Positions 6,539-62,441 of a stretch of 64,000 nucleotides of DNA are shown here, piece by piece. How positions within the stretch are numbered: the first letter of the stretch is position 1; each line of letters starts with the position of its first letter. Below the pieces are notes generated by a model that was not told where the DNA came from, did not search any database, and worked only from the letters and a program-made list of their open reading frames with translations. The translations under genes and the position numbers were made by a program. This stretch comes from Natronohydrobacter sp. GTDB lineage: Bacteria > Pseudomonadota > Alphaproteobacteria > Rhodobacterales > Rhodobacteraceae. Location: the NCBI GenBank assembly GCA_020832555.1, contig JAFIEM010000005.1, positions 1-64,000 on the forward strand. Reading direction: 5' to 3'.

Positions 6539-6656
6539 TCGGATGCGTTCTGCGCGATACCGCCACGCTGTGCAGGTTTTCCCTGACGGCCTGTATACTT
6601 TTCTTGCTGCCGTCCGTTCTGGCTATTCAGAAGTGACAAAACCACAAGGACGCGTC

Positions 6657-7082
6657 ATGAATCTCAATGTCGCAAGACAGCACTACCGTCGCATTGGCCA
6701 GTCGGAGCCAAACATTCCGGACGATGCACATGCATTGATCGTTATGGTGATGTCAGAGTTGCACGGCGCACTCGAACGGCTGCAGATCGCAGGCAAGAAG
6801 GGCACGCCGCTTCCGCCGGATGCGATGGTCAAGGCCATGTCGGCGCTCTATGTCTTGCAAAGCAGCCTCGACATGGACAGCAAACAAGATATCGCGGTTC
6901 CGCTGTTTCAGGTTTATGAATATTGCCGCCAACAGGTCATGGCTGGATTCCGCAAGGAACCCGGACATGCCGAAGGACTTGAGAAAGCGCGCGGCTTCAT
7001 CGCCAGCCTGAAAGATGCCTGGATCGGGATGGAACGACAGGCGAGACCTAGCCCAGATAGTCAAACAGTGACCGTCCGGTGA
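6657..7082 (+). CDS. fliS: Flagellin export chaperone FliS
   Basis: Cytosolic chaperone (141 aa) that binds the C-terminus of flagellin and prevents premature polymerisation before export. FliS character is seen in HALIVMVMSELHGALERL near residues 23-40, the helix with LQSSLDMD around residues 68-75 and the C-terminal AWIGM helix. The ATG at 6657 has an AAGGA ribosome site 6 nt upstream; the upstream in-frame extension lacks one. It is convergent with flgL, overlapping its 3' end by 35 bp, and is separated from fliD and fliC by some 40 kb, unlike the usual fliD-fliS pairing. No clear sigma28 or sigma54 promoter was found upstream. Confidence 0.88.
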   Translation: MNLNVARQHYRRIGQSEPNIPDDAHALIVMVMSELHGALERLQIAGKKGTPLPPDAMVKAMSALYVLQSSLDMDSKQDIAVPLFQVYEYCRQQVMAGFRKEPGHAEGLEKARGFIASLKDAWIGMERQARPSPDSQTVTVR

Positions 7083-42319: not shown

Positions 42320-42565
42320 ATGTCCGGTTCGCTCTCGGGGTGCCGCCGTTGTCAACAGGCACGCCGCTTCGCCAGCTTCTGTTTTGCCGCTTTCGCGGTC
42401 GCGCTGGTATTGTCAGCGTCAGACCCGGTCTTTGATGCCTGGCAACAAGGCGTTCTGTTGCTTTGTGGCCTTCTCGCGGCACTTGCGTTCTTCCGCCATC
42501 CGATCGCGCGCCTGAGCACGGCGCTCGCCAGCAAGCTCCAGGGTAGAGGATGGAGACATGACTGA
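42320..42565 (+). CDS. Unknown small membrane protein, first gene of sigma54 operon
   Basis: An 81-aa protein with a Cys pair near the N-terminus (GCRRCQQ, C8 and C11) and two predicted membrane segments (about 20-35 and 43-60), ending in a basic amphipathic stretch. No family is recognised. The ATG at 42320 has a strong ribosome site. It overlaps the next gene by 8 bp. Its promoter type and position between flhB and rpoN suggest a flagellar role, not shown by homology. Confidence 0.68.
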   Translation: MSGSLSGCRRCQQARRFASFCFAAFAVALVLSASDPVFDAWQQGVLLLCGLLAALAFFRHPIARLSTALASKLQGRGWRHD

Positions 42566-43262
42566 TCCCGTCACGGAAAGCCACCTGCAAGAGATCGCGC
42601 GCAAAGCGGTTGACGCCGCCCAACTGGCCACCGAAGCCGCGCATGAAGCCGAGGCAGCGATTGCTGCGCGAAGCGAAGCAGCCCAAGCCCTCGGCAAGAC
42701 CGCACGCCAGACGCAATGGCTGTCTTTGGGCGCAGTCGCAGGGTCCATCTTGATCTTGGCGGCAGGTGGCCTGTTCTGGGCGCGCGCCTCCAGTCATCTT
42801 GGACAGGCTGCCGAAGTGCAGGCAGCAGCCACAGCTGGCTTCATCGAGAACCTGGTGCAAATGAACACGGCGCTGGATCAGATGCAGCAGGTCATCGATG
42901 CCTCGACCGATGCAATGAATCGCAGCGAGCAGGAAGTGGCTGTTCTGATCGCGCGGCTTGATCAGCGCTTGGGCGATGTCGCACAGGATTTCGCCGGAAG
43001 GCGCGACCTGACCGAAGCGGCGTCACCAGCGCCTGCAGAAGTCCTGATCGCCCTCGCAGAGCTGGAAATGCGCCTGAGCAGACAAATCTCCGATCTGGTT
43101 GTCCCGGCTCCAGCGGCGGTCGCTTCTGCTGTAAGACCCCAACAATCGGCAGACTCGGCATCACCGGCGCCTTCTCAACAAGCGCGCAACAGCAGAGCTG
43201 TATCGCGCCCTGCCCCGCGACCAGCACCACCTCCGCAGCCCAATCCTTTCAGCTTCCCTTGA
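42558..43262 (+). CDS. Unknown bitopic membrane protein with coiled coil, MotF candidate
   Basis: A 234-aa protein. An alanine-rich helical cytoplasmic N-terminus (residues 1-50) precedes one membrane span (about 54-74, LSLGAVAGSILILAAGGLFWA), a periplasmic helical region with coiled-coil potential (about 85-175) and a Pro-rich C-terminus (PAPRPAPPPQPNPFSFP). R. sphaeroides fla1 encodes MotF, a bitopic membrane protein needed for motor rotation; this gene agrees in topology and neighbourhood, but I could not confirm sequence identity. Stator or rotor accessory function is therefore only a candidate. Confidence 0.72.
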   Translation: MTDPVTESHLQEIARKAVDAAQLATEAAHEAEAAIAARSEAAQALGKTARQTQWLSLGAVAGSILILAAGGLFWARASSHLGQAAEVQAAATAGFIENLVQMNTALDQMQQVIDASTDAMNRSEQEVAVLIARLDQRLGDVAQDFAGRRDLTEAASPAPAEVLIALAELEMRLSRQISDLVVPAPAAVASAVRPQQSADSASPAPSQQARNSRAVSRPAPRPAPPPQPNPFSFP

Positions 43263-43288
43263 TCCGCAAAGCAAAAGAGACTTCGCCG

Positions 43289-43981
43289 ATGACTGAGAGC
43301 CATGAAAACACCTCTCTCGTTCTCAAACGATGCCGCGCCGACGACGCGGGCTATCCGTTCGGCCTTCATGCCGGAGACAGATTGATCGCAGTCAACGGTG
43401 CAACCTGGCACGGGTCCGCGTCGGCCTTGCAGAAAATCGTCGCAACCCATGGTCAGCCAAGCCTGCTGACATTCATGCGAGATGGCATCGTCTTTTCGAT
43501 ACTGACGCCGCGCGCCGACCTTGGGTGCTGGGACGCGAAGCCAGCGCTGAATGAGCCGTCTGAACTGCCAGCATTGGACAGCCCCGTGCGCAACTGGGAG
43601 ATAATGGCGGACAAGAACGGTAATCACGACCTGTTTACTGTCGATGCGTCGCTGCTTGCCCTCGTAGCGCCACCTATCTGGCTGGCGAAGTCGCGCCTAT
43701 GGTCGGGGCTTGCGGTGTTTTTCACGGTCATTGCGCTCAGCCTGCCTGTTGGGACTGCGCTGTTATTTGTTGTCTGGATCGTTGCCGGTGTCCATCTTTG
43801 GCGCGACGGAGCAGAACACCTGCGCATCGCGCTGCAAATGCGGGGCTATGTGCGTCGTGGCATCGTGGCTGCGACCAGCGAAGCCGAGGCTGTCGCATTG
43901 TGGTCTCGCTTGGTCCCGCAGGCGCGCTTCCGCTTCGCACATCCGCAATCAGTTGGACAGCTCCAGTCATCACTGGGCTGA
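43289..43981 (+). CDS. Unknown PDZ-like protein with membrane segment
   Basis: About 230 aa. Residues 8-80 look like a PDZ-type fold (GYPFGLHAGDRLIAVNG, then LQKIVATHGQPSLLTFMRDG). A hydrophobic region at about 135-168 could form one or two membrane segments, followed by a basic/amphipathic tail. No catalytic protease domain is present. The ATG at 43289 follows AAGAGA; a TTG ten codons upstream is an alternative. It ends convergent with rpoN (12 bp overlap). It is third in the sigma54-driven operon and of unknown function. Confidence 0.68.
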   Translation: MTESHENTSLVLKRCRADDAGYPFGLHAGDRLIAVNGATWHGSASALQKIVATHGQPSLLTFMRDGIVFSILTPRADLGCWDAKPALNEPSELPALDSPVRNWEIMADKNGNHDLFTVDASLLALVAPPIWLAKSRLWSGLAVFFTVIALSLPVGTALLFVVWIVAGVHLWRDGAEHLRIALQMRGYVRRGIVAATSEAEAVALWSRLVPQARFRFAHPQSVGQLQSSLG

Positions 43982-45473: not shown

Positions 45474-46955
45474 TCAGCCGCGCAGAAGCTGCATCACGTT
45501 CTGCTTGGACGCATTGGCCTGCGCCAGCATGGCGGTCGCCGCCTGGCTGAGAATCTGACCACGTGCGAGATTGGTCGATTCGGCAGCGAAATCGGCATCC
45601 ATGATCTGCGACCGAGCAGCTTCGACCGAGGTCGTGATATTGGTCAGGTTCGAGATGGTCGAGTCCAGACGGTTCGACACGGCACCAAGGTTCGAGCGCG
45701 CTTCGCTGACTTTCGACAAGGCCATGTCGATCACATTGATGGCCTTGGCAGCGCCTTCAGCGGTGGACAAGTCGATCTCGGCCAGTTGCTCCAGCACTGC
45801 AGGCGAGTTGGAGTTCGAGAAGAAGGCTTCGTCAACTTCGACATCCGAAGAATGCACCGAGAAGACATTGGTAGAGGACAGCGTGACCTGGCCTGTCACG
45901 GTTGCATCCTCGCCGTCGGTCAACTCATGCGTGGTCGTGAAGCCCGTCCCGGCATCTGCTTCGCTGCCATCGGCATTGAGTACATCCACGTCGATCGTCA
46001 GATCATCACCATCGCCATTGTCCGAATCGAAGTTGGAAAAGACAATGTTTGCACCGGTGGTATCGGTCAGGATGATCTCGCTGTTATCGTCACCCATCTT
46101 TGCCGTCACGCCAGTACGTGTGGTCTGGGCATTGATCGCGTCACGCAGCGAACGCAGGTCATTGGCATCTGAAATCGCAACCGGGCCAATCTCGCGGCCA
46201 TTGATCTCGAATGACAGCTGACCTGCTTCGCTCAGCCCCGAGAGTTTGGCAACCGTCTGCGCCGTGGCCGAAACGCCCGTCGAGGATGACACGCCGTTGA
46301 TCGCAGCCGCGAGCCCTCGTGCGGACATCCCCGCAGTTTGTTCAATCTCGGCGGAACCTGCATGGCCAGAGATGATGATATTCGTGCCACCGGCGATGGC
46401 AGAGGTATTGGCATCGGCAACATTCACGTCCGAACGCAGCGTAAAGGCGCCGATATCTGTGGCACGGGTGCTGTCCACGCTGATGGACACGGTAATGTTG
46501 GCATCGGCGCCGATCTGGAACTGCTTGCCCGAATAGCTGCCGTCCATGATGTTCATGCCGTTGAACGTGGTGGTTTCCGACACACGATTGATCTCGGCGA
46601 TCAACTGACGGCTTTCGGCCACGATGTTGCCGCGATCCGACGAGGTGTTGGTATCGTTCGAGGACTGGACCGCAAGCTCGCGCAGACGCTGCATCATGTT
46701 CGAGACCTCGACATGCGCGGATTCGGTCGTGTCGATCAGGTTCTTGCCGTCAGTCGCATTGCGAACGGCCTGATTGAGGCCCATGATCTGTGCGGTCATC
46801 TTTTCGCCGATCGCCATGCCGGCAGCGTCGTCCTTGGCAGCGTTGATGCGCAAACCCGTCGAAAGGCGCGTCATCGCGGTGTTCAACTGATCATTCACAC
46901 GCGTCATGTTCGCCTGTGCTGCAAGCGCGCCGATATTGGTATTGATGCTGGTCAT
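45474..46955 (-). CDS. fliC: Flagellin FliC
   Basis: Filament subunit (493 aa). The D0/D1 N-terminus (MTSINTNIGALAAQANMTRVNDQLNTAMTRLSTGLRINAAKDDAAGMAIGEKM region) and C-terminus (SNLTNITTSVEAARSQIMDADFAAESTNLARGQILSQAATAMLAQANASKQNVMQLL region) are classic; the centre (about 150-400) is variable and markedly acidic. It is expressed from a sigma28 promoter and exported by FliS-assisted secretion. It ends at an intrinsic terminator. Only one flagellin gene is present in the window. Confidence 0.96.
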   Translation of the reverse strand: MTSINTNIGALAAQANMTRVNDQLNTAMTRLSTGLRINAAKDDAAGMAIGEKMTAQIMGLNQAVRNATDGKNLIDTTESAHVEVSNMMQRLRELAVQSSNDTNTSSDRGNIVAESRQLIAEINRVSETTTFNGMNIMDGSYSGKQFQIGADANITVSISVDSTRATDIGAFTLRSDVNVADANTSAIAGGTNIIISGHAGSAEIEQTAGMSARGLAAAINGVSSSTGVSATAQTVAKLSGLSEAGQLSFEINGREIGPVAISDANDLRSLRDAINAQTTRTGVTAKMGDDNSEIILTDTTGANIVFSNFDSDNGDGDDLTIDVDVLNADGSEADAGTGFTTTHELTDGEDATVTGQVTLSSTNVFSVHSSDVEVDEAFFSNSNSPAVLEQLAEIDLSTAEGAAKAINVIDMALSKVSEARSNLGAVSNRLDSTISNLTNITTSVEAARSQIMDADFAAESTNLARGQILSQAATAMLAQANASKQNVMQLLRG

Positions 46956-47002: not shown

Positions 47003-47028
47003 AGAACGGCACTGCCGGAAAAAGTTTA
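47003..47028 (-). promoter_or_regulatory. Sigma28 (FliA) promoter of fliC
   Basis: Minus-strand TAAACTTT (47028-47021), ten bases, GCCGTTCT (47010-47003). This matches TAAA...GCCGATAA with 14 rather than 15 bases between TAAA and GCCG. It lies 48 nt before the fliC ATG. Confidence 0.75.
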
Positions 47029-47043
47029 GTCGACGCCATCTCT

Positions 47044-47876: not shown

Positions 47877-48968
47877 ATGGCAGCCAAACCCAAGCCGCGC
47901 AAGGTTATTCCGATCTTCGTCGAGGATGACGAAGGCGATGACGCGGATTGCCCGCGCTGCCCGCCAGTTGGTGCACCCGCCTGGATGGCGACCTTTGCGG
48001 ATTTGGCCATCCTGTTGATGGCCTTCTTCGTCCTGATCATCGCCTTTGCGAATTTTGATGAAGTGTCCTTCAAGAAGATGACCGGAGCCTTGCGAGAGCA
48101 TTTCGGCACGAAAGTCGTCGATGCGTTGCCATATCCCGACAGTTCGACCATCATTCCGATGGACTTTCGCCCGGCCTCTGCACCACCTTCGCCACATGAC
48201 TCGCCCGATGCACAGGATCATCCGGGGGCGCAGTCGGAAATTCTGGAGCAGATCGCGGAAATCCTGTCTCAGGCCATGGCACAGGGCGAAATGACGCTCT
48301 CCAACACAGATGGTCTGGTCTCCGTACGACTGCCCGATGGCGCGGGGCTTGAAGAACTTGCGCAAGCCTTGTCGCGTTCAGTGGATGAATTTGCGGGTCG
48401 ATCATCATCCGATACGGCAGATGACCGGCACGACGAAGCAGAACCGGGGCCTGACTCCGCGGAAAATGCGGCACCGGGGGACGCTGGCAGTCAAGCGCAG
48501 GCCCGCGCCGCAATTGCGGATGCAAGGCTGCGCGTCGCCTTGCGCGAGTTGCAGGATCAGGGTCTTGTCGATATCGAACAGCGCGAGGACCGTGTGATCG
48601 TCACGGTTGGAGCTGGCGGCGCATTCCGTTCAGGTTCCGCAGATCTGACACAAGAAGCGCAGGACATCATGGCGCGCATCGCCCAGACCGGAGTCGGCTT
48701 GGAGGCGCAGGTCACGGTTACAGGACACACCGATTCCGTCCCCCTGTCCGGAGGACCGTTCACAGACAACTGGGGGCTGGCTGCCGCGCGCGCGTCATCG
48801 GTCGTTCGGGAACTGGGCGCAAGCGGGCTGGTTGATCCAACGCGGTTGAACGCTGTCAGCCGAGGGGAAACCGTTCCAGTGGCATCGAATGACACCGAGA
48901 TTGGCCGCGCAGCCAATCGGCGCATCGAAATCGAGATCGATTTCGGAAGTTCAGAGCGGACCCGCTAA
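47877..48968 (+). CDS. motB: Flagellar stator protein MotB
   Basis: Stator subunit (363 aa), anchoring the motor to peptidoglycan. An acidic N-terminus with CPRC is followed by one membrane helix with ion-binding Asp at about residue 42 (PAWMATFADLAILLMAFFVLIIAF), a plug-like segment, a long linker, and an OmpA-like domain (VTGHTDSVPLSGGPFTDNWGLAAARA). The transmembrane sequence is PomB-like, but H+ or Na+ use cannot be decided from it. Confidence 0.94.
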   Translation: MAAKPKPRKVIPIFVEDDEGDDADCPRCPPVGAPAWMATFADLAILLMAFFVLIIAFANFDEVSFKKMTGALREHFGTKVVDALPYPDSSTIIPMDFRPASAPPSPHDSPDAQDHPGAQSEILEQIAEILSQAMAQGEMTLSNTDGLVSVRLPDGAGLEELAQALSRSVDEFAGRSSSDTADDRHDEAEPGPDSAENAAPGDAGSQAQARAAIADARLRVALRELQDQGLVDIEQREDRVIVTVGAGGAFRSGSADLTQEAQDIMARIAQTGVGLEAQVTVTGHTDSVPLSGGPFTDNWGLAAARASSVVRELGASGLVDPTRLNAVSRGETVPVASNDTEIGRAANRRIEIEIDFGSSERTR

Positions 48969-49012
48969 CATTCTACGCGCGTTGGCCGTTTCCCTCGCTG
49001 AAGGAGAGCGCT

Positions 49013-50641
49013 ATGAAACCAGATCTGTTGAGCACATTGAACAAATCCGGTTCCGGCCTGAATCTTCGCGATCTGGCCCAGACCCTCGCAACCGCTGAGA
49101 CGGCGCCGCAGATCAATCGCCTGCAGCGCGCGCAGAGCGAAGATGAATTGCGCCTTTCGGGCTTGTCGGCATTGCGTGCTCAACTGGACGCTCTTGGCGC
49201 CAATCTAGTCCGTGCGGCAGGGAACCCCGGCCTCAGCGTCGAGACCAGCACGCCCGCGCTTTCGCCCAAAGTCACTGATCGCAACGCCGTGATACCGGGC
49301 ACAGTCGCGATTGACGTCCTCGCCCTGGCGCGACCGCAGGTTCTGGAATTCACAGGGTTCCAGTCACCATTGCAGGCGCTTTCAACGGGTGTCCTGACAG
49401 TCGATTTCGGCGCCTGGAGTGATGTCGGCTTCACACCCTCCCCCGAACGCCCTTCACTGGACCTGACGCTGGCCGACGGCACGACATTACAGGGCTTGGC
49501 CGACACGCTGAACCGCTTGCCGGGCGTGATGGCGCAAATCCTCGACAAGGGCGACGGCACCTTTTCACTGGGCATCCTTAGCGATACCGGGACTCAGAGT
49601 GCGATCAGGTTGCGCGCGACAGATGGCGGCACGGATGGCGTGTCATTGATGGCTTTTGACACGCAGACCTCCAATGACACCCACCAGATTCAAGCAGCAC
49701 AGGACGCGGTGGTTTCAGTTAACGGGATTGCCCTGACCAGGCAGAGCAATGTCCTGACCGACGTTATTCCAGGCGTCGAGATCGCCTTGCAAGGAACGGT
49801 CAGCGGAGCAATCAAGATTGATCGCAGCGCCGACGCCACGCGCGAAAATGTCCAGCTGCTGATTTCGGGTCTGAACGAAACCCTGGCTTTGCTGCGCGAT
49901 CTGACCACCAGTGACGCAGGGACAGGAAGCAAGGGTTCATTGGCAGGTGATCGCAACCTGCTGACGCTCGAGTCTGCGCTCAGACGCTTGATATCACAGC
50001 CTCTGAGCGGGTATGCCGACCGCCCGGTTACAATGGCGGATCTTGGTATAGCAACCGAGCGCAGCGGAATGTTGCGATTTGATCCGCCTGCATTTGACCG
50101 GACATTCGCGCAGAATGCGAGCCATTTCGATGCGCTTTTCGAGAACAAGCTACGCGCCCTCTCGGGCCGGGCCGACATCGCGGGCACCCCTGCATCCGGC
50201 CTGCGCCCGGGCGATCTGCGCTTCGAGCGCTCGGCAGACGGCACGGCCACGCTCGACGGGTTCTCGATGAGCGCGGCCACCTTGCCAGACGGCAGATCGC
50301 GCTATCTGGTGACTGCCGGACCCGCGCGCGGATTGTCGATGACGGTCCCGGCCGATCTGAACAGCGATACAATCCGCTTCGGGCGCAGCTTCGCCGAGCA
50401 ACTGGCGATCCTTCTGGATGATGCTGTCTCGCGAACCGGTCTGATCGGACGGAAGGAAACCGAAATCGACCGCCAGAACACGCAACGCAGCGCGCGTGTG
50501 GAGATGCTCGAAGCGCGCGCTGCGATCGTGGAGAAACGCTACCTTTCGCGCTTTGCAGCCATGGAACAGGCCGTGTCGCAAATGAATGCAACATCAAACT
50601 ATCTGAAGAACCTCGTCGATATGTGGTCAAGCAAAAGGTAA
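49013..50641 (+). CDS. fliD: Filament cap protein FliD (HAP2)
   Basis: Filament cap (542 aa). FliD_N lies at about 12-110 and the C-terminal coiled coil at about 470-540 (RQNTQRSARVEMLEARAAIVEKRYLSRFAAMEQAVSQMNATSNYL), with FliD_C motifs (GSKGSLAGDRNLLTLESALRRLI, MADLGIATERSGMLRFD) between. A strong AAGGAGAG ribosome site is present. No separate promoter was found in the 44-bp gap after motB, so it may be read from motA. Confidence 0.93.
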   Translation: MKPDLLSTLNKSGSGLNLRDLAQTLATAETAPQINRLQRAQSEDELRLSGLSALRAQLDALGANLVRAAGNPGLSVETSTPALSPKVTDRNAVIPGTVAIDVLALARPQVLEFTGFQSPLQALSTGVLTVDFGAWSDVGFTPSPERPSLDLTLADGTTLQGLADTLNRLPGVMAQILDKGDGTFSLGILSDTGTQSAIRLRATDGGTDGVSLMAFDTQTSNDTHQIQAAQDAVVSVNGIALTRQSNVLTDVIPGVEIALQGTVSGAIKIDRSADATRENVQLLISGLNETLALLRDLTTSDAGTGSKGSLAGDRNLLTLESALRRLISQPLSGYADRPVTMADLGIATERSGMLRFDPPAFDRTFAQNASHFDALFENKLRALSGRADIAGTPASGLRPGDLRFERSADGTATLDGFSMSAATLPDGRSRYLVTAGPARGLSMTVPADLNSDTIRFGRSFAEQLAILLDDAVSRTGLIGRKETEIDRQNTQRSARVEMLEARAAIVEKRYLSRFAAMEQAVSQMNATSNYLKNLVDMWSSKR

Positions 50642-50684: not shown

Positions 50685-51809
50685 TCAGTGCTTTTCCCGC
50701 GCCACATTGACACCGTATTTACGCATTTTCTCGATAAGTGTCGTGCGATGCAGCCCAAGTACCATCGCAGCACGGCTGACACAGTCCTGCTGCTCTTCCA
50801 GAGCCGCCGTGATCATGAGGATTTCGATATCGCGAAGATAGCTTCGCAAGTCGATACGCCCGGTGCCTCTGCGAAACACATCTGCCAGACGGGCGGGATT
50901 ATCCTGCGCCAATTCCTGTGGGGATGGCGGTTCCGGCCAGTCGGGCGCCTGCACCCGAGGGCAGGCGAAATTCACCAGATTCTCGTTGATCTCGCGCGCA
51001 GTCACTTTCCGCCCCGGAAAAAGCAGCAAAGCCCGTTGAATCAGGGTTTTCAATTCACGCACATTTCCCGCCCAGTCGCGGGCGCACAGTGCCCGCAATG
51101 CCGAAGCGTCAAAAACGGGGTGCTCTGCGGTGCGTTGTCCCCGCGTTTCCGCGTGCAGCAGGGTCTCAATAAGCAGTGGAAGGTCGTCGAGCCTGTCGCG
51201 AAGTGCAGGCACCTGGACCGGAAAGACCGACAGCCGGAAAAACAGATCCTCACGAAAACTGCCGCTCGCAACCATCTTCTCCAGATCGCGATGTGTAGCT
51301 GCGACCAAACGGAAATCCAACTGAACGCTCGCGGTGCCCCCCAGCCTGCGCAGGCTTCGTGTTTCAAGGACACGCAGCAGTTTCGCCTGCATTGCAAGCG
51401 GAAGATCACCGATTTCATCCAGAAACAGCGTGCCACCTTGCGCCTGCTCGAACAAACCCTCGCGGCTCCGGTCTGCACCGGTATAAGCTCCTCGTTCTGC
51501 CCCGAACAGTTCTCCTTCAAGAAGATCGGCGGGTATTGCCGCGCAGTTCACGGCGACGATCTGGCCTTTGCGCCCGGAAAGACTGTGCAACGCCTGTGCG
51601 ACAAGCTCCTTGCCTGACCCGCTTGCCCCCTGGATCAGAACAGGCGCGCCAGCAGGCGCCAGCAATGTGATCAACTGTTTCAAATTCCTCATCGGCGCGG
51701 AATTTCCGGGAACCATCTGATCAAGCCTGGACATGCTCAGCTCGCCGCGTGACGGCTGTAGCGCGAGGTCGGCAGTTTCCAGATCGATGGGCGTAAAGTG
51801 CTTGACCAT
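50685..51809 (-). CDS. fleQ: Flagellar sigma54 activator FleQ
   Basis: Enhancer-binding protein (374 aa) with a short N-terminus (about 37 aa, no receiver), AAA+ core with Walker A QGASGSGKELV, sigma54 loop GAYTGA (Tyr variant of GAFTGA), Walker B GGTLFLDE, and a C-terminal Fis-type helix-turn-helix (DCVSRAAMVLGLHRTTLIEKMRKYGV). It should supply the DNA-binding function that FleT lacks. Convergent with fliD (43 bp apart) and divergent from the NHLP-like operon. No sigma54 promoter precedes it, fitting a master regulator. Confidence 0.9.
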   Translation of the reverse strand: MVKHFTPIDLETADLALQPSRGELSMSRLDQMVPGNSAPMRNLKQLITLLAPAGAPVLIQGASGSGKELVAQALHSLSGRKGQIVAVNCAAIPADLLEGELFGAERGAYTGADRSREGLFEQAQGGTLFLDEIGDLPLAMQAKLLRVLETRSLRRLGGTASVQLDFRLVAATHRDLEKMVASGSFREDLFFRLSVFPVQVPALRDRLDDLPLLIETLLHAETRGQRTAEHPVFDASALRALCARDWAGNVRELKTLIQRALLLFPGRKVTAREINENLVNFACPRVQAPDWPEPPSPQELAQDNPARLADVFRRGTGRIDLRSYLRDIEILMITAALEEQQDCVSRAAMVLGLHRTTLIEKMRKYGVNVAREKH

Positions 51810-51945
51810 TGAGGACCTTCAAATGTCTGTTGGCCCCATTATTCACTCTAAATATCGGATCAGTAACTCCTCCAGATGGCTAACGACCTGGACATCGGTC
51901 TGTCAGCTTCCAAAGGGGGTATATCCGCAGACTTTCGGATGGGTC

Positions 51946-51972
51946 TAAACTGCACGCCATCGCAGCCGTTGC
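51946..51972 (+). promoter_or_regulatory. Sigma28 (FliA) promoter of the 52.0-53.0 kb operon
   Basis: TAAA at 51946-51949, fifteen bases, then GCCGTTGC at 51965-51972, the exact TAAA-N15-GCCG spacing of sigma28 promoters and sharing CTAAACT and GCCGTT with the fliC promoter. It is 36 nt before the ATG at 52008. Confidence 0.68.
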
Positions 51973-52007
51973 TATTGGTACGACGCTGTTGCCCGATCGG
52001 AGCCATC

Positions 52008-52415
52008 ATGCAACCATTGACCAACACAGCCCCGGTACCTTTCGCACGCTATTTGCCTGCGCGCGCCAACAGGCGCATAGGCGCTGATCACGCGCAGACC
52101 GGTCGCGATGCCTTCGCTCTTGCCGCCGGTGCGACACGACTTGAAAACAGCGCCGAGGTAGAGCGCTTTCTGCCCGATATATTGGGCCGCGCCCTCGCGC
52201 GATGCTGGATTGATGCCGAGTTTCGCCATCGCTTCTGCTCCGATCCTCGCACAACACTGGCCAGTCACAAGATTGAACTCCCCGCGATTATCGATATCGA
52301 AGTGGTTCATCATGGTCAGAAACGCCCGATGGTCGTCGTTTCAGAACGTCAAGGCGGAGGCTTGGCGCGACGTCGCTTGCTCTATCTTCAGCTTGTGATG
52401 GTCGCGGGAAAATGA
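52008..52415 (+). CDS. NHLP-leader/nitrile-hydratase-alpha-like protein of unknown role
   Basis: A 135-aa protein. Residues about 60-108 contain ALARCWIDAEFRHRFCSDP, then TTLASHKIELPAIIDIEVV, then KRPMVVVSER. This pattern (W-x-D-x-x-F-R, D-P-x-x-x-L, I-x-L-P, VVV) is that of nitrile hydratase alpha subunits and NHLP-type RiPP leader peptides. The metal-binding Cys cluster of nitrile hydratase is absent, and the C-terminal tail (about 26 aa, Arg/Leu-rich) does not look like a typical core peptide. It has a sigma28 promoter and is coupled (ATGA) to the Sel1 gene, so a late flagellar function is inferred. No maturation enzyme was seen in the window. Confidence 0.72.
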   Translation: MQPLTNTAPVPFARYLPARANRRIGADHAQTGRDAFALAAGATRLENSAEVERFLPDILGRALARCWIDAEFRHRFCSDPRTTLASHKIELPAIIDIEVVHHGQKRPMVVVSERQGGGLARRRLLYLQLVMVAGK

Positions 52416-53041
52416 AGCCGCTGCTCCTGACTGTCCTTCTCTTTCTGTCAGGCCCGGTCATGGCAGAGCAGTTCGAACAGGCGCTCTCGCATGTCGCTTC
52501 AGGAGAGTATTCCAAAGCTGCGGCCGCGTTTCATGCCCTTGCGGAAGAGGGCGATCTTGCTGCCGCGCATAATCTTGCAGTTCTGTTTTCGCTTGGACAG
52601 GGAGTGCCGCGCAGTTTCCCTGACGCTGGCTTTTGGGCATGGCGCGCATTGCTAGACGGGCTGGACCAGACCGCACCGCTTGCCGGGCAGCTGTTGTCAG
52701 AACTGTCGGACCCCGAACGCGCCAAGATAAGCGACCGGCTTGAACAGCATTTTGCTCCGCAAGCCGAAACCGGTGTAGCGCGCGCAATGCTCGCGCTGGC
52801 CGTCATTCAGATCGTCCTTCGCCCCGAGCCCGACTATCTGGCCGCATATGCCTGGCAGAGCATTGCGGCGGCACTCGACCATCACAGCGCGGCCCAGGCG
52901 CGCGAAATGACCCGCAATATGATGCCAGCGGGGTTGCGTTCTGGCGCATCGGAATTTGCATTGGCAGCTTTTCGCGACTGGTGCGCGCGACAGGGCGAAA
53001 CCGCCCCCGTCTCCTGTGCTGTCGTCATGGCAAGCCACTGA
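52412..53041 (+). CDS. Periplasmic Sel1/TPR-repeat protein, MotX-like candidate
   Basis: A 209-aa protein with a signal peptide (MKPLLLTVLLFLSGPVMAEQ) and Sel1-type helical repeats (ALSHVASGEYSKAAAAFHALAEEGDLAAAHNLAVLFSLGQGVPRSFPDAGFWAWRAL region, then MLALAVIQIVLRPEPDYLAAYAWQSIAAALDHHSA). C-terminal Cys residues could form a disulphide. In Vibrio, MotX is a Sel1-repeat protein of the T ring needed for stator docking; with a sigma28 promoter beside flagellar genes an analogous motor role is plausible. Sequence orthology to MotX was not established. Confidence 0.75.
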   Translation: MKPLLLTVLLFLSGPVMAEQFEQALSHVASGEYSKAAAAFHALAEEGDLAAAHNLAVLFSLGQGVPRSFPDAGFWAWRALLDGLDQTAPLAGQLLSELSDPERAKISDRLEQHFAPQAETGVARAMLALAVIQIVLRPEPDYLAAYAWQSIAAALDHHSAAQAREMTRNMMPAGLRSGASEFALAAFRDWCARQGETAPVSCAVVMASH

Positions 53042-53064: not shown

Positions 53065-55323
53065 TCATACGATCTGACCAATGGTTTCCAGCAGTTTCTG
53101 AGAGGTGAAGGGTTTGCCAAGACAGCCGTTGAAGCCTGCGCGCAAATAATCGCGCACCTGATCTGGCATGGCATTCGCTGTCACGGCCAAAGCCGGTACG
53201 GGTCGGTGATTAGAGCTCGCCTCGCGCATCCTGATCTCGCGGATCAGGTCTGTGCCCGCCATCCGAGGCATATTGATATCAAGCAACAGCAGATCGAAAT
53301 TCTGATCTGCGAGGGTTTTCAACGCAGTCTCACCGTCTTCACATAGGGTGACCTGCGCATTCAATTTACGCAACATGAGTTGGAGAAGCCGTCTGTTGGT
53401 GGCGCTATCGTCCGTGACCAGAATCGAGCGCCCGCTCAAGTCAATCCCTTTGTGGCTCGTCGAAACCGCAGGTGCGATTGCAAGTGGCAGGCTCAGGATT
53501 GCGGTCGTTCCGCAGCCCTTTTCCGAAGCGAGATCCAGATCTCCCTGCATGGACCTGGCCAGCCAACGCGCAATGCTCAGCCCCACGCCCTGCCCACCGT
53601 AGCGACGCGATAGGCTCTCGTCAATCTGTCGAAAGGGCTCGAATGCCAGAGCAACCTGCTCTTCGGACATACCAATTCCGCTGTCAATTATCGTGATCAC
53701 GACCCGCTCGGCGCGCGAGATGTCAACCTCGACCCGGATCTCGCCAGTTTCGGTGAACTTCACAGCATTCGACAGAAGATGGCGCAAAATCTGTGCAAGG
53801 CGCGCGGCGTCACCCAGGCGATTGTCCTCCACCTCTCCGAGATAGGCAAAGCGCAGCGCAAGACCCCGTTCGACTGCCTTGCGCGAAAACGATCCTACGG
53901 CCTGATCACAGACGGCCCGCAGATCAAACGGCACGAGGTTCAATTGCAATGGGCCATCTTCCAGTCTGGCGACGTCCAGTACATCGCTCAGCACCTGATT
54001 CAGCTCGTTTGCAGCAACGCTTATCTGTGCGAGTTGTTCCTTGTCATCACCCAGTCGATCTGACTGCCCGAGCACATCGGCCATGCCGAGAATCGCCGTC
54101 AATGGCGTGCGCATCTCGTGGCTCATGGTTGCGAGAAAGGCTGATTTCGCCCGGCTTGCCATTTGCGCCTGATCGCGCGCTTCAGCCAATGCACTGACAT
54201 CCCCGGCATAGCCCCGAAAACCGGCAAAGGCACCTTCGCTGTCTTTAAACGGAACCATGGATACCTGAACCGCGCGCAGGCTGCCATCCGAGAGCTTGAA
54301 ACTGAGCAATTCGTGCAAGGCGCGTGTCTGGTTCTGTGCAAGGACAGCGCTGAGCGGCACCCGCTTGTAGGCTTCATCTTTCAGCCGGACCCCCAAATCA
54401 TCGATATGGGAACCAAGAATGCTTTCAGGGGCGATATCGAAAGCAGATGCCATCCCTTCGGAAACATAGGAAAGACGTAGCTGCGCATCGATTTCGAAGA
54501 ACCAAGCGCGACTCATCTTGGCGATGTCTGACAAGCGCCCCTCGACACGGGTCAGATCGGCGCGCATCTCCTTTACGGTACTGACATCCTTGTAGCTGAT
54601 CACGATGAAGCGCGCGTCCTGTCCGGGCGCGGGCACCGGTTGCAGAGTGACTTCCGTCCAGCTTGCTACGCCATTGTCATGTGGGATCTGGAATTCGAAC
54701 TGCCCCGCGTTGCGACCTTCCAGCGCCTGCCTGTATCGCACATGCTCCTGCGATTGCGGGTCTGCGGTCGCTGGTATGTCGAATGCGCTGCGAAGCGACG
54801 CAGTCTTGCCTTCGCTCCCAGACGCGCGGTTGAGCGCTGCGCTGACATAGAGCAGAGGTCGCGCCGGAAGCGACGCGTCTGCGACAGCAATCGCTGCATC
54901 TGCGCCGGAGATCAGCATTTCCAGCAAATCGCCGCGATCACGTGCCGCTTTCTGTGCCTGATGCAGGTTCAGCAAATTGCGCACGCGCAGTTTGAACTCT
55001 TCTATGTTGACAGGTTTGGTCAGAAACTCGGTCGCGCCTGCCCTGATGGCTGCCATGCGCGTTGTTGCATCATGTTCGCCTGTGACCACGATAATTGGCA
55101 GATGGGCGGTTCTGCGATCGAGGCGCAGCCTCCGGATGGCCTCGACCCCGGTCAGGTCAGGCAAGCGGTGGTCAAACACGGCAAGATCCGCCCCGTCGAA
55201 ACAGGCGGATATACCGTCTTCTGCTGTGGAATAACCTTCAACTTCATACTGCGTGCCATTGCGCAGCGACATGATCAGAATATCCCGTATCACGGGATGA
55301 TCCTCAACAATTACCACACGCAT
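53065..55323 (-). CDS. Hybrid histidine kinase, REC-PAS-PAS-HisKA-HATPase-REC
   Basis: A soluble hybrid kinase of 752 aa with no membrane segments. The N-terminal receiver (MRVVIVEDHPVIRDIL; Asp in DLAVFDHRLPDLTG) is followed by two PAS-like regions (about 150-260 and 270-385), an H box FLATMSHEMRTPLTAILG (His near 400), an ATPase with N box LSNAVKFTETG and IIDSGIGMSEEQ and GVGLSIARWL, and a C-terminal receiver (LLLLDINMPRMAG). ATG at 55323 starts the receiver. It is convergent with the Sel1 gene (23 bp). The two receivers imply phosphorelay input and output; partner not identified. The LuxR-type and CtrA-like regulators of this window are candidates by proximity only. Confidence 0.88.
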   Translation of the reverse strand: MRVVIVEDHPVIRDILIMSLRNGTQYEVEGYSTAEDGISACFDGADLAVFDHRLPDLTGVEAIRRLRLDRRTAHLPIIVVTGEHDATTRMAAIRAGATEFLTKPVNIEEFKLRVRNLLNLHQAQKAARDRGDLLEMLISGADAAIAVADASLPARPLLYVSAALNRASGSEGKTASLRSAFDIPATADPQSQEHVRYRQALEGRNAGQFEFQIPHDNGVASWTEVTLQPVPAPGQDARFIVISYKDVSTVKEMRADLTRVEGRLSDIAKMSRAWFFEIDAQLRLSYVSEGMASAFDIAPESILGSHIDDLGVRLKDEAYKRVPLSAVLAQNQTRALHELLSFKLSDGSLRAVQVSMVPFKDSEGAFAGFRGYAGDVSALAEARDQAQMASRAKSAFLATMSHEMRTPLTAILGMADVLGQSDRLGDDKEQLAQISVAANELNQVLSDVLDVARLEDGPLQLNLVPFDLRAVCDQAVGSFSRKAVERGLALRFAYLGEVEDNRLGDAARLAQILRHLLSNAVKFTETGEIRVEVDISRAERVVITIIDSGIGMSEEQVALAFEPFRQIDESLSRRYGGQGVGLSIARWLARSMQGDLDLASEKGCGTTAILSLPLAIAPAVSTSHKGIDLSGRSILVTDDSATNRRLLQLMLRKLNAQVTLCEDGETALKTLADQNFDLLLLDINMPRMAGTDLIREIRMREASSNHRPVPALAVTANAMPDQVRDYLRAGFNGCLGKPFTSQKLLETIGQIV

Positions 55324-55504
55324 CAACTCGCCCGATCAAGAAATGTACCCCCTTGATTTCATATGTTTCAGAAGGTTTAGATAATCTGAACGGCAAGTTT
55401 TTTTCTGCTGTCTCGGTTATGTCCAACAGCCTCCATGAACGTCATGACAACGGCGCCTGTCATGGGCACCGTTCTTGTGGTGCAAACCGAAGCCATGCCG
55501 GGAT

Positions 55505-55920: not shown

Positions 55921-56226
55921 TCAATCTGCGATCAGCGAAACCTGCGCGGCAAGTGCATCTGCAATTCTTGCGGGGTTCAACGGGTAGCGACCCGCTGCAA
56001 TTTCGGCACTCAGATGTGCCACGACATCTGCATCGATAGGTGGGCCCTTGCTCATTTCCAAAGGCAGACTGCGCGCGGAAACCGAAAGGGACACATCATC
56101 CCCGGTTTCGCCGCCACGCGCTGGCGGGTTGCTCAGGGAAGAACTCTGCGCCTTGCCTGTCTGGGCCTGGCCGGTTTCACCGATCGCGCGCAATTGGGTG
56201 ATGTTTGATGTGATCTGATTGACCAT
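55921..56226 (-). CDS. flgM: Anti-sigma28 factor FlgM
   Basis: Anti-sigma factor (101 aa) that holds FliA until hook completion and is then exported. The C-terminal sigma-binding half (IDADVVAHLSAEIAAGRYPLNPARIADALAAQ) has the FlgM pattern (V-x-x-L-x-x-x-I-x-x-G-x-Y), and the N-terminus is polar and disordered. It belongs to the flgP-flgT-flgA-flgM operon, whose sigma54 promoter is back-to-back with that of flhA-flhF-fliA, so sigma factor and antagonist are co-induced. Confidence 0.88.
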   Translation of the reverse strand: MVNQITSNITQLRAIGETGQAQTGKAQSSSLSNPPARGGETGDDVSLSVSARSLPLEMSKGPPIDADVVAHLSAEIAAGRYPLNPARIADALAAQVSLIAD

Positions 56227-56258
56227 GACAGCCTCCGGTTTCTCCTAGTAACGGCCAG

Positions 56259-56963
56259 TCACGGCAGGATGTTAGGGCGCACGCGGGCTTGGCCGGGCGC
56301 GATGATTTCAGCTTTCACAACACGCTCCGAATTCCACGGGCGCACTCGGATGCGGTCCCCCAGCCAACCGTTTTCAAGGGCGATGGCCGCTATCCCGATC
56401 TCGATTTCTCCCTGTGACAGATGGAGTGTGATTTTCTCTCCATCCGAAACAGGATGATCGGGTTCCAGATGGCGTTCCAGAACGGGCTGATCCGGCACCA
56501 GGGAAACCCGGACACGGCGGCCAATGACGCTTTCCGGCTCATGTATCATTCCCAGTCGGCTGGGTGTCGGCTGCATCGCGAGATCGTCGGCGGAAACGCG
56601 CTGACCTCGTGTCAAAGGTCGGGTCACAACGACGGCCAGTCTCGATCCGGCGGTGCGCGCTGCTGGTTCTCTCTGCGTGGCAGGCAGATCAAATGCACTC
56701 AGCCGAAGAACGCGACGCCATGGCGCAGGAGCATCACATCGAAGCTCAGCCTGCGACCACTGCCCGTTCACAGGAGAGACGACAGGCGCGTGAACACATG
56801 GCGGAAAGGCGCGGATCGGGGCCAAGATTTCGGGCGCGGGCTGATTGTCCTGCTGCATTGCAATCTCGACCAGTGACAAGATCTCCTGCCCTGTAATCAT
56901 TTCAGGCCGCACCGTGCCGGGAAAGAGCACGATACAGGAAATCAAGATCGAAGCCCGTTTCAT
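56259..56963 (-). CDS. flgA: P-ring assembly chaperone FlgA
   Basis: Periplasmic chaperone for FlgI polymerisation (234 aa). A signal peptide (MKRASILISCIVLFPGTVRP) precedes an N-terminal domain and the SAF-type domain (VTRPLTRGQRVSADDLAMQP, IGRRVRVSLVPDQPVLERHLEP, WLGDRIRVRPWNSERVVKAEIIAPGQARV). It overlaps flgT by 4 bp. Confidence 0.93.
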   Translation of the reverse strand: MKRASILISCIVLFPGTVRPEMITGQEILSLVEIAMQQDNQPAPEILAPIRAFPPCVHAPVVSPVNGQWSQAELRCDAPAPWRRVLRLSAFDLPATQREPAARTAGSRLAVVVTRPLTRGQRVSADDLAMQPTPSRLGMIHEPESVIGRRVRVSLVPDQPVLERHLEPDHPVSDGEKITLHLSQGEIEIGIAAIALENGWLGDRIRVRPWNSERVVKAEIIAPGQARVRPNILP

Positions 56964-60940: not shown

Positions 60941-61747
60941 ATGTCCTTGATCAGAATACGCGCGGCGGACACTGCAAAGGCTCTCGCAGAGGTCGAGCGC
61001 AGATTTGGCGAGGACGCGATGATCGTCTCGACAAGCCGCGATAACGGCGAGGTTGAAATAGTCATCACACAATCCGCCGAGCTTGCGCAGGCGCCCCTGT
61101 CCACCGAAATGTCACAACCAGACGCTCACGCGCTGCCCCTGCCGTCGCGCCTTGTGCTGATTGGACCACCGGGTGCAGGCGTCTCCATGCTGGCGGCACG
61201 CCTTGCCGCATATTGGATGCGACACGAACCTTCAGTCAATGTGCAGTTGATCGCGCCGCGCCCCGACCCGCTTGCTCCGGTCTCACCGCTCGTTGCGCAT
61301 GCGCGGTTGCTCGGGCTGAGCATCGAGACGCCAAACTGGACGACCGGGCAACCCGGGCAGATTGCGGATACGAACGGGCATCGGCCTCAGATCGTCGATC
61401 TGTCCGGGCTTGGCCAGGACGGGCCCTTCCATGTGGCGCCCTTGCTGGGCGGGGCTTCCACCGCCTGCTGGCTTGTTCTGCCAACCGGTCTACACAGGCA
61501 GGCGCAGGACACCATTCTTGCGGTCTACCGTCCGCTCTGCAGCGCTCTGGCACTCACGCGCGCGGATTTATGCCCGCTCACTCTGGAAGATCGCGCTCTT
61601 CCATACCGATTTGGCCTGCCGATTGCATTGGTTGCTCAAGGTGTCGGCCTGCTCGACGCCTGTCGAATGCAGAATCCCACGCGGCCCATGTCCGCCCAAT
61701 ACAAACAAAAGGATAACCCGCATGTTGCCGCGCGCCTATCCGGATAA
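60941..61747 (+). CDS. flhF: FlhF-like protein with degenerate GTPase site
   Basis: An SRP-GTPase-related protein (268 aa) in the normal flhF position. The N-domain fits FlhF (MSLIRIRAADTAKALAEVERRFGEDAMIVSTSRDNGEVEIV). The P-loop at residues 75-82 reads GPPGAGVS instead of GPTGVGKT, so the catalytic Lys is replaced by Val; the G3 DTAGR motif is IVDLSGLGQ and the TKLD motif is TRADL. It is shorter than typical FlhF (over 350 aa). GTP binding is probably lost. In polar flagellates FlhF places the flagellum with FlhG, but no flhG is present in this locus. Its 3' end overlaps fliA. Confidence 0.82.
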   Translation: MSLIRIRAADTAKALAEVERRFGEDAMIVSTSRDNGEVEIVITQSAELAQAPLSTEMSQPDAHALPLPSRLVLIGPPGAGVSMLAARLAAYWMRHEPSVNVQLIAPRPDPLAPVSPLVAHARLLGLSIETPNWTTGQPGQIADTNGHRPQIVDLSGLGQDGPFHVAPLLGGASTACWLVLPTGLHRQAQDTILAVYRPLCSALALTRADLCPLTLEDRALPYRFGLPIALVAQGVGLLDACRMQNPTRPMSAQYKQKDNPHVAARLSG

Positions 61748-62441
61748 GGCCCTTTCACCCGAGAAGCTGGTGACAACGCATTATGATCTTGCCCGCAAGA
61801 TTGCATGGCATGTGCATGGTCGGGTCGGACGGCGGGTCGAGATCGACGATCTGTTGCAGGTTGCCTATCTCGGGCTACTTGACGCAGCGCAGCGCTACGA
61901 GCCCAAACCCGATACGCCGTTTTCTGCCTATGCCAGTATCCGCATCCGGGGGGCAGTTACCGACTACCTGCGTGGTCTGGCGGGCATGACGCGCAGTGCG
62001 CTCAAGATGCAGGCGCGTTTGCGACAGGCAGAGCAACGTCTCACTCAGAGCCTGATGCGCCAGCCCAATGATACCGAACTCGCGGCAGCGCTGAAAATCA
62101 CCGACCTTGAGCTTGGGCGGTGGCGCTCGGAGATAGACAATGCTTCCGTCACTTCAATCGAAGATATCTACAGCGATCATTCCATCCTGTTTCGCGATTC
62201 TGCTCCCGATGTCGAAGAGCGACTGACGCGCGCGACACACAAGCGCTTGCTGGCTGACGCGATCGGAAATCTGCCAGAGCGCGAGGCGATGGTCCTGCAA
62301 CTCTATTATGTCGAGGAGTTGAACGTCTACGAGGTCGCGGAAATTCTTGGGGTCACGACCGGTCGCGTATCCCAGATCAAGAAAGCCGCCATGCAAAGGT
62401 TGAGCACCCTCATCAACCTCGCCACCACGGAAAACTCTTGA
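61722..62441 (+). CDS. fliA: Flagellar sigma28 factor FliA
   Basis: Sigma factor (239 aa) for late genes. Region 2 (HYDLARKIAWHVHGRVGRRVEIDDLLQVAYLGLLDAAQRYEP... FSAYASIRIRGAVTDYLRG), region 3 (ALKMQARLRQAEQRL) and region 4 (LPEREAMVLQLYYVEELNVYEVAEILGVTTGRVSQIKKAAMQRL) are all clear. The ATG at 61722 follows AAAGGA and lies inside the end of flhF. Targets here are the promoters at fliC and 51.9 kb; it is antagonised by FlgM. Confidence 0.95.
   Translation: MLPRAYPDKALSPEKLVTTHYDLARKIAWHVHGRVGRRVEIDDLLQVAYLGLLDAAQRYEPKPDTPFSAYASIRIRGAVTDYLRGLAGMTRSALKMQARLRQAEQRLTQSLMRQPNDTELAAALKITDLELGRWRSEIDNASVTSIEDIYSDHSILFRDSAPDVEERLTRATHKRLLADAIGNLPEREAMVLQLYYVEELNVYEVAEILGVTTGRVSQIKKAAMQRLSTLINLATTENS

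Follow-up and report, generated by a model that had tools for sequence, protein, structure and literature searches.

A conserved gene pair with a sigma28-type promoter in alphaproteobacterial flagellar clusters encodes a protein remotely related to NHLP leaders and a Sel1-repeat protein

Two overlapping genes of Natronohydrobacter sp., here denoted A and B, are a real, conserved flagellar gene pair of one flagellum type. Gene A (52008-52415, + strand; 135 aa, ATG at 52008, no signal peptide) is remotely related to NHLP leaders and to the nitrile hydratase alpha subunit, and gene B (52412-53041, + strand; 209 aa) encodes a Sel1/TPR protein with a signal peptide; all coordinates refer to the window, i.e. 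the whole 64,000-nucleotide stretch of DNA that was analyzed. To judge from its promoter, the pair appears to be switched on together with the filament genes of its flagellum, and it appears to be nameless in the libraries and papers that we searched. Taking together the common promoter motif, the conserved pairing, the distant relationship in fold and the joint occurrence with the flagellum, all of them derived from sequence, we tentatively favor a reading in which A would be a cytoplasmic filament-stage adaptor and B a periplasmic scaffold, encoded in a late sigma28 operon of one alphaproteobacterial flagellar type that comprises fla3-like clusters in Rhodobacterales as well as clusters in certain other families.

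The coordinates of the promoter and of both genes given in an earlier note on this DNA proved correct when the sequence was re-read, and all residues of the pattern that it described in the 135-aa protein were located (W67-x-D69-x-x-F72-R, D79-P80 and I89-x-L91-P92). The frame of gene A is open from 51876, a GGAG ends 5 bases ahead of its ATG, and gene B starts within the TGA stop codon of gene A in an ATGA overlap. The pair is flanked on the left by fliD (ORF 49013-50641, +) and a sigma54 activator (50685-51809, -) and on the right by a hybrid histidine kinase (53065-55326, -) and flgM (ORF 55921-56226, -), all four identified with Pfam. The right flank also includes flgA, together with flgM and flgT (H-ring protein, PF16548; 56960-58060, -), followed by flhA and a sigma28-type sigma factor (ORF 61362-62441, +). 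The latter, a fliA candidate named by family and position, contains Sigma70 regions r2, r3 and r4 from residue 136 on, and its true start is probably farther downstream than the ORF start. The fliC gene (ORF 45474-46955, -) is encoded in the same cluster, as are a MotF-like ORF near rpoN (42558-43262, +), called by position and size with no Pfam match, and a second unnamed ORF beside it (43259-43981); a FliS ORF (6543-7082, +) lies at the opposite end of the cluster from fliC, at a distance of about 38 kb.

The sigma28-type promoter that had been proposed ahead of the pair is borne out by a fuller motif, found by comparing the upstream regions of 27 window genes and present also at fliC, fliD and flgM. 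The loose motif TAAA-N14-16-GCCG, which ahead of gene A consists of TAAA (51946-51949), N15 and GCCG (51965-51968), was rejected as a promoter signal, being no rarer in the window than expected by chance (3 sites versus 2.0 expected, with at least 3 in 32 of 100 shuffles; not significant). The fuller motif CTAAM-N14-16-GCCGTT occurs 4 times in the 64 kb versus 0.07 expected, with none of 100 shuffles yielding 4 sites, a figure that is partly post hoc in that the motif was picked once the window sites were known. All four sites are directly upstream of fliC (47005-47029, -), fliD (48965-48990, +), gene A (CTAAA-N15-GCCGTT, 51945-51970, +) and flgM (56250-56275, -).

Because the fuller motif was picked with the window sites known, other genomes provide the better test; the support is partly post hoc for the loci L002-L011 as well, the upstream regions of which were also known beforehand. 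Among 62 loci, which partly overlap (L079 repeats L007, and L080 and L010 appear to be one contig), 60 exact sites were detected versus 2.3 expected from mononucleotide shuffling. The scripted assignment attributed 18 of these to FlgM, 11 to gene A (8 labeled A and 3 labeled A_NHLP), 11 to FliC, 9 to FliD, 3 to the FliS ORF, 1 to a ParB-like gene and 7 to none; judged by coordinates, two of these 7 (one in the window, one in L003) precede A, and the other five have no assignment. None of the 60 exact sites was assigned to MotA, FlgT or FlhA, which are annotated 20, 40 and 39 times, respectively, in the 62 loci. Upstream of A, all 8 bases of the core are matched in 10 of 36 loci versus 0.27 expected, and at least 7 of the 8 bases are present in 27 versus 6.98 expected (mononucleotide shuffling in both cases), with fewer than 7 in the other 9 regions; in the 62-locus scan, most of the more distantly related loci lack the exact motif at A. 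FliA directs the expression of fliC and fliD, both class IV genes, in R. sphaeroides (PMC7277832). Gene A shares the sigma28-type promoter with fliC and fliD, as a member of the FliA regulon should, and expression of A-B would, on the strength of this motif, depend on FliA.

The linkage of A-B to flagellar genes is conserved in several families. Gene B adjoins A in all 10 loci of a first set, all within flagellar clusters, in 25 of the 28 loci of a second set (the exceptions are L069, L083 and L076), and in 11 of 11 further loci from 9 of the 44 A-containing genomes of family f109, with at least two loci shared between the sets (L007 with L079, and L010 with L080). In 27 of 28 loci, the fetched sequence around A contained recognizable flagellar genes; the exception (L076) is a contig end. 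The distribution of A itself is patchy: it was detected in 20 of 394 genomes of the same family, in just 2 of 35 other genomes of the same genus, in 44 of 61 sampled genomes of family f109, in 9 of 385 genomes of a class-level sample at 59 bits or more (the other 24 matched genomes scored at most 39 bits), and, at E <= 1e-8, in its own genome only in a phylum sample of 398. A plasmid collection contained no match for A and one distant Sel1 match for B, and phage families gave no match for A and one weak, unknown family for B. The plasmid match, a B-like Sel1 protein (30% identity), is encoded in Octadecabacter arcticus 238 (NC_020909.1:18888-19412).

Within the same family, A co-occurs with a particular type of FliD. 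The window type of FliD was found in 22 of the 394 genomes, and 16 of the 20 A-containing genomes possess both (Fisher p = 2.9e-20), leaving four with A alone (G532, G614, G702 and G804) and six of the 22 with this FliD alone (G449, G638, G651, G652, G690 and G740). A B-like gene is present without A in four of these six (G690, G652, G740 and, partially, G449), and neither A nor B was detected at E <= 1e-10 in G638 and G651. In G690, which has no A match, the end of fliD and B overlap (L092:17388-19798); motAB were unrecognized in the approximately 40 kb fetched from this genome, as described for R. sphaeroides. G755 encodes A without B, and a histidine-kinase-like ORF of about 600 aa follows A in the place of B (L083:9749-12104). 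Two similar flagellar clusters, each with A-B, are present in G1181 (L131 and L132), an assembly rated 7% contaminated that possibly includes mixed strains. In two 1.4 Mb genomes (G043 and G357; L016 and L065), bactofilin-like and lytic transglycosylase-like ORFs, identified by eye, are located between A-B and rpoN.

The window cluster encodes RpoN, sigma54 activators, FliA/FlgM, FliD, FlgT and, by position, the MotF-like ORF. This content, together with the patchy distribution, appears to fit the fla3-type of Rhodobacterales, a label that we take from published descriptions of the type as horizontally moved and as including the R. sphaeroides cluster called Fla1 (PMC12363192, PMC7277832). FlaF was found in 13 of 34 genomes and in none of the 8 A-containing genomes outside the family of the window genome; A coexists with FlaF in some genomes, and the FlaF of the window genome, encoded on another contig, may serve a second flagellum. 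In families other than its own, A may overlap the role of FlaF.

According to the earlier note, a lack of matches to the NHLP and nitrile hydratase alpha profiles would refute its proposal; gene A does match both: TIGR03793 (leader_NHLP) at E = 2e-7 and 30.8 bits, below the curated cut-off of 50.9 bits for membership, and Pfam NHase_alpha, weakly, at E = 0.0059. Among the 32 members of the A family, 30 match TIGR03793 at E <= 0.01 (best 2.6e-8) and 11 match NHase_alpha at the same threshold. The best PDB match is the NHLP leader chimera 8tb1, a proteusin precursor (E = 2.1e-6, or 1.6e-7 with a profile). The AlphaFold2 model of A, built from 12 sequences, has a mean pLDDT of 71.6, with residues 1-32 below 50, and consists of helices 48-68, 70-78 and 80-86, followed by strands 95-100, 108-114 and 121-128. 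Its top Foldseek match is again 8tb1 (probability 1.00, rmsd 1.5 over 43 columns, E = 0.044), with nothing at E <= 0.001. Thus, a domain relationship to NHLP leaders and nitrile hydratase alpha is likely, with residues 48-86 forming the NHLP/NHase-alpha-like helices and a predicted three-stranded sheet forming the C-terminal half.

Three parts of A are conserved at 72% mean pairwise identity each in the 32 members: helix 51-69 (VERFLPDILGRALARCWID, codons 52158-52214, +), RPxVVVYE at residues 106-113, and the C-terminal stretch 122-135 (RRLLYLQLVMVAGK, codons 52371-52412, +). The rest of the NHLP-like part (residues 70-105) has 35% mean identity, the N-terminus 23% and the linker 21%. The tripeptide LVP is found within the first 20 residues in 18 of the 32 members, a count in which the start sites of some sequences were fixed by alignment.

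In the adaptor reading, FlgM would leave the cell once the hook is finished, and FliA would then turn on fliC, fliD, flgM and A-B together. A would be a soluble adaptor in the cytoplasm, built on the NHLP/NHase-alpha fold, the flexible N-terminus (often with LVP) and the conserved sheet of RPxVVVYE and the C-terminal LYLQLVMxAGK strand would bind a partner on the export side, and this partner would most likely be flagellin or another late substrate en route to the export gate. Because 26 of the 28 A-containing genomes also encode FliS, there is no FliS gap for A to fill; A as a FliS substitute was accordingly rejected, and A would act alongside FliS. B would be exported by Sec and, in a way comparable to that of MotX, would serve the rings or stators as a periplasmic Sel1 scaffold. 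That A works with flagellin is hinted at best by a single case, G338, in which a divergent A paralog directly follows a solitary flagellin (L069:8598-10134; Flagellin_N E = 3e-31, Flagellin_C E = 2e-19), and 20 kb of sequence contained no further recognizable flagellar gene; the extra A copies in G1181 and G1197 are not paired with flagellin, and the flagellin-plus-A pair occurs in one genome only. Several observations count against an adaptor. Linkage of A is much more frequent with B than with flagellin and could point to the motor, and A is dispensable, given the six genomes that have the window type of FliD without it. The scarcity of A within its own genus, the lack of the exact motif at A in most distant loci, and the modest Foldseek E-value and pLDDT of the A model also weigh against this reading. 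The fold and promoter calls of the earlier note are upheld; the chaperone, adaptor or motor accessory that it proposed as a "late flagellar task" is inferred.

The foremost alternative, possible but on balance doubtful, is that A-B are a motor accessory involved in rotation rather than filament assembly, with B as a MotX-like stator scaffold next to the FlgT H-ring and A as its cytoplasmic counterpart on stator or switch proteins. The prevalence of A-B linkage over A-flagellin linkage argues for this alternative, as do the architecture of B and the presence of FlgT in the clusters. The N-terminus of B resembles a signal peptide (with the cleavage site placed by eye, MKPLLLTVLLFLSGPVMA|EQ), which suggests a periplasmic location, and the description of B as a Sel1 protein holds: the single sequence matches Pfam weakly (TPR_16 E = 0.04, Sel1 E = 0.65), the family profile matches Sel1 structures strongly (6ok3, E = 1e-36), and the AlphaFold2 model is all helix with a mean pLDDT of 94.6. 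In Vibrio, motX belongs to the sigma28-dependent class IV genes (PMC6504787), and its product carries a SEL1 motif (PMC9093738). MotX chains appear in the profile searches with B at E = 0.44 and then, with a profile of 33 B proteins, at 0.007 to 0.013, and the B model matches the LPHT-ring chain 8z5n_C (Foldseek E = 0.55, probability 0.80).

Against a motor accessory stands the observation that B matches numerous unrelated Sel1 proteins with much better scores than MotX, and the repeat layouts differ, the matched repeats being in opposite halves (residues ~125-200 of 211 in MotX and ~40-112 of the profile in B). Furthermore, the window motA has, instead of a sigma28-type site, the sigma54-like TGGCATGTTCCTTGCA at -53. 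A search for MotY as a partner of B matched MotY_N in none of 34 genomes, and the controls gave no match either. Accordingly, the parallel to MotX drawn in the earlier note stands for promoter class, compartment and repeat type and fails for the specific sequence match and the repeat position: B may, by analogy, work like MotX, but MotX orthology is not supported.

It is unlikely that A is instead a late regulator that adjusts filament gene output through binding to flagellin, FliA, FlgM or a transcript, as FliW and FlbT do in other systems, with B merely co-transcribed. A is small and conserved, has the same class of promoter as the anti-sigma factor FlgM, and has the flagellin-linked paralog; nevertheless, it matched no DNA- or RNA-binding family in the profile libraries, and several genomes with the same FliD type lack it altogether. 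Finally, that A is a RiPP precursor, the conserved tail of which is modified and released, is very improbable: the NHLP-leader homology and a GGG ahead of the tail in the window sequence are compatible with such a product, but the tail is twice as conserved as residues 70-105, a GG or GA is present in only 4 of the 32 linkers, the NHLP exporter TIGR03796 was above cut-off in none of the 28 A-containing genomes (a search in which 14 controls, too, yielded only sub-threshold ABC transporters and no positive), and the recognized neighbors of A are mostly flagellar, many neighboring ORFs lying outside the search for maturation enzymes. The "RiPP-leader-type fold" of the earlier note therefore survives as remote homology and not as a RiPP precursor, A of the window being below the cut-off, free of a conserved GG and conserved at the C-terminus. 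A nitrile hydratase subunit was rejected on the weak profile matches (11 of 32) and the lack of conserved cysteines.

Returning to the adaptor and scaffold, a bolder version, which we consider rather speculative, is that Alphaproteobacteria, perhaps on a single occasion, recruited the leader-peptide/NHase-alpha fold as a permanent flagellar part, a filament-stage adaptor that would hold flagellin or another late substrate at the export gate via its conserved C-terminal strand, and that its partner B would be a second, independently evolved MotX-like scaffold. Few bacterial machines have been mapped as well as flagella, yet this strongly conserved late pair is apparently nameless: consistent with the claim in the earlier note that it had not been described, no description of A-B was found among the open-access papers searched, including searches for NHLP or nitrile hydratase with flagella or motility and for R. 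sphaeroides Sel1. A would put the leader fold to a use outside RiPPs, and B is a candidate periplasmic stator scaffold for flagella that are said, in an excerpt on R. sphaeroides, to be without MotX and MotY (PMC7277832).

Among known systems, the NHLP leaders (TIGR03793, e.g. 8tb1) resemble A in remote homology over the helical segment and in the local structural match. In leader peptides, the leader is the constant part and the core the variable one, whereas in A the tail is conserved; a conserved GG-type cleavage site ahead of a variable core, which we take to be a feature of NHLP leader peptides, was not found in the 32 members, and A differs further in its sub-cut-off score, the exporter result and the flagellar context. 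Nitrile hydratase alpha (PF02979) shares weak profile matches with A, but A covers just part of the domain and has no conserved cluster of cysteines (the best cysteine column is occupied in 9 of 32 members), presumably the metal-binding motif of that subunit. Vibrio MotX is similar to B in the signal peptide, the Sel1 repeats, sigma28-class expression (for B, by promoter) and the company of FlgT; unlike MotX, B carries its repeats in the other half, and the match between them (E = 0.007) is no better than those of other Sel1 proteins. The Vibrio flagellation protein SflA, according to the part of the source available (PMC7226244), has a periplasmic TPR/Sel1-like domain (6if6), to which B has weak matches, but also a transmembrane segment and a DnaJ domain, and it is encoded outside flagellar clusters, whereas B is encoded inside one and matched no DnaJ domain. 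FliS (PF02561) is, like A, a small late flagellar protein and is encoded near A in several genomes, but it is a separate gene, present in 32 of all 34 genomes searched, and A matched no FliS model. Finally, CP1-4 are, like A-B, uncharacterized conserved proteins of a Rhodobacterales flagellar cluster, in their case motility proteins that an excerpt of PMC12363192 confines to fla1-type clusters, so that they are set apart by cluster type from A-B and the cluster tentatively matched here to fla3.
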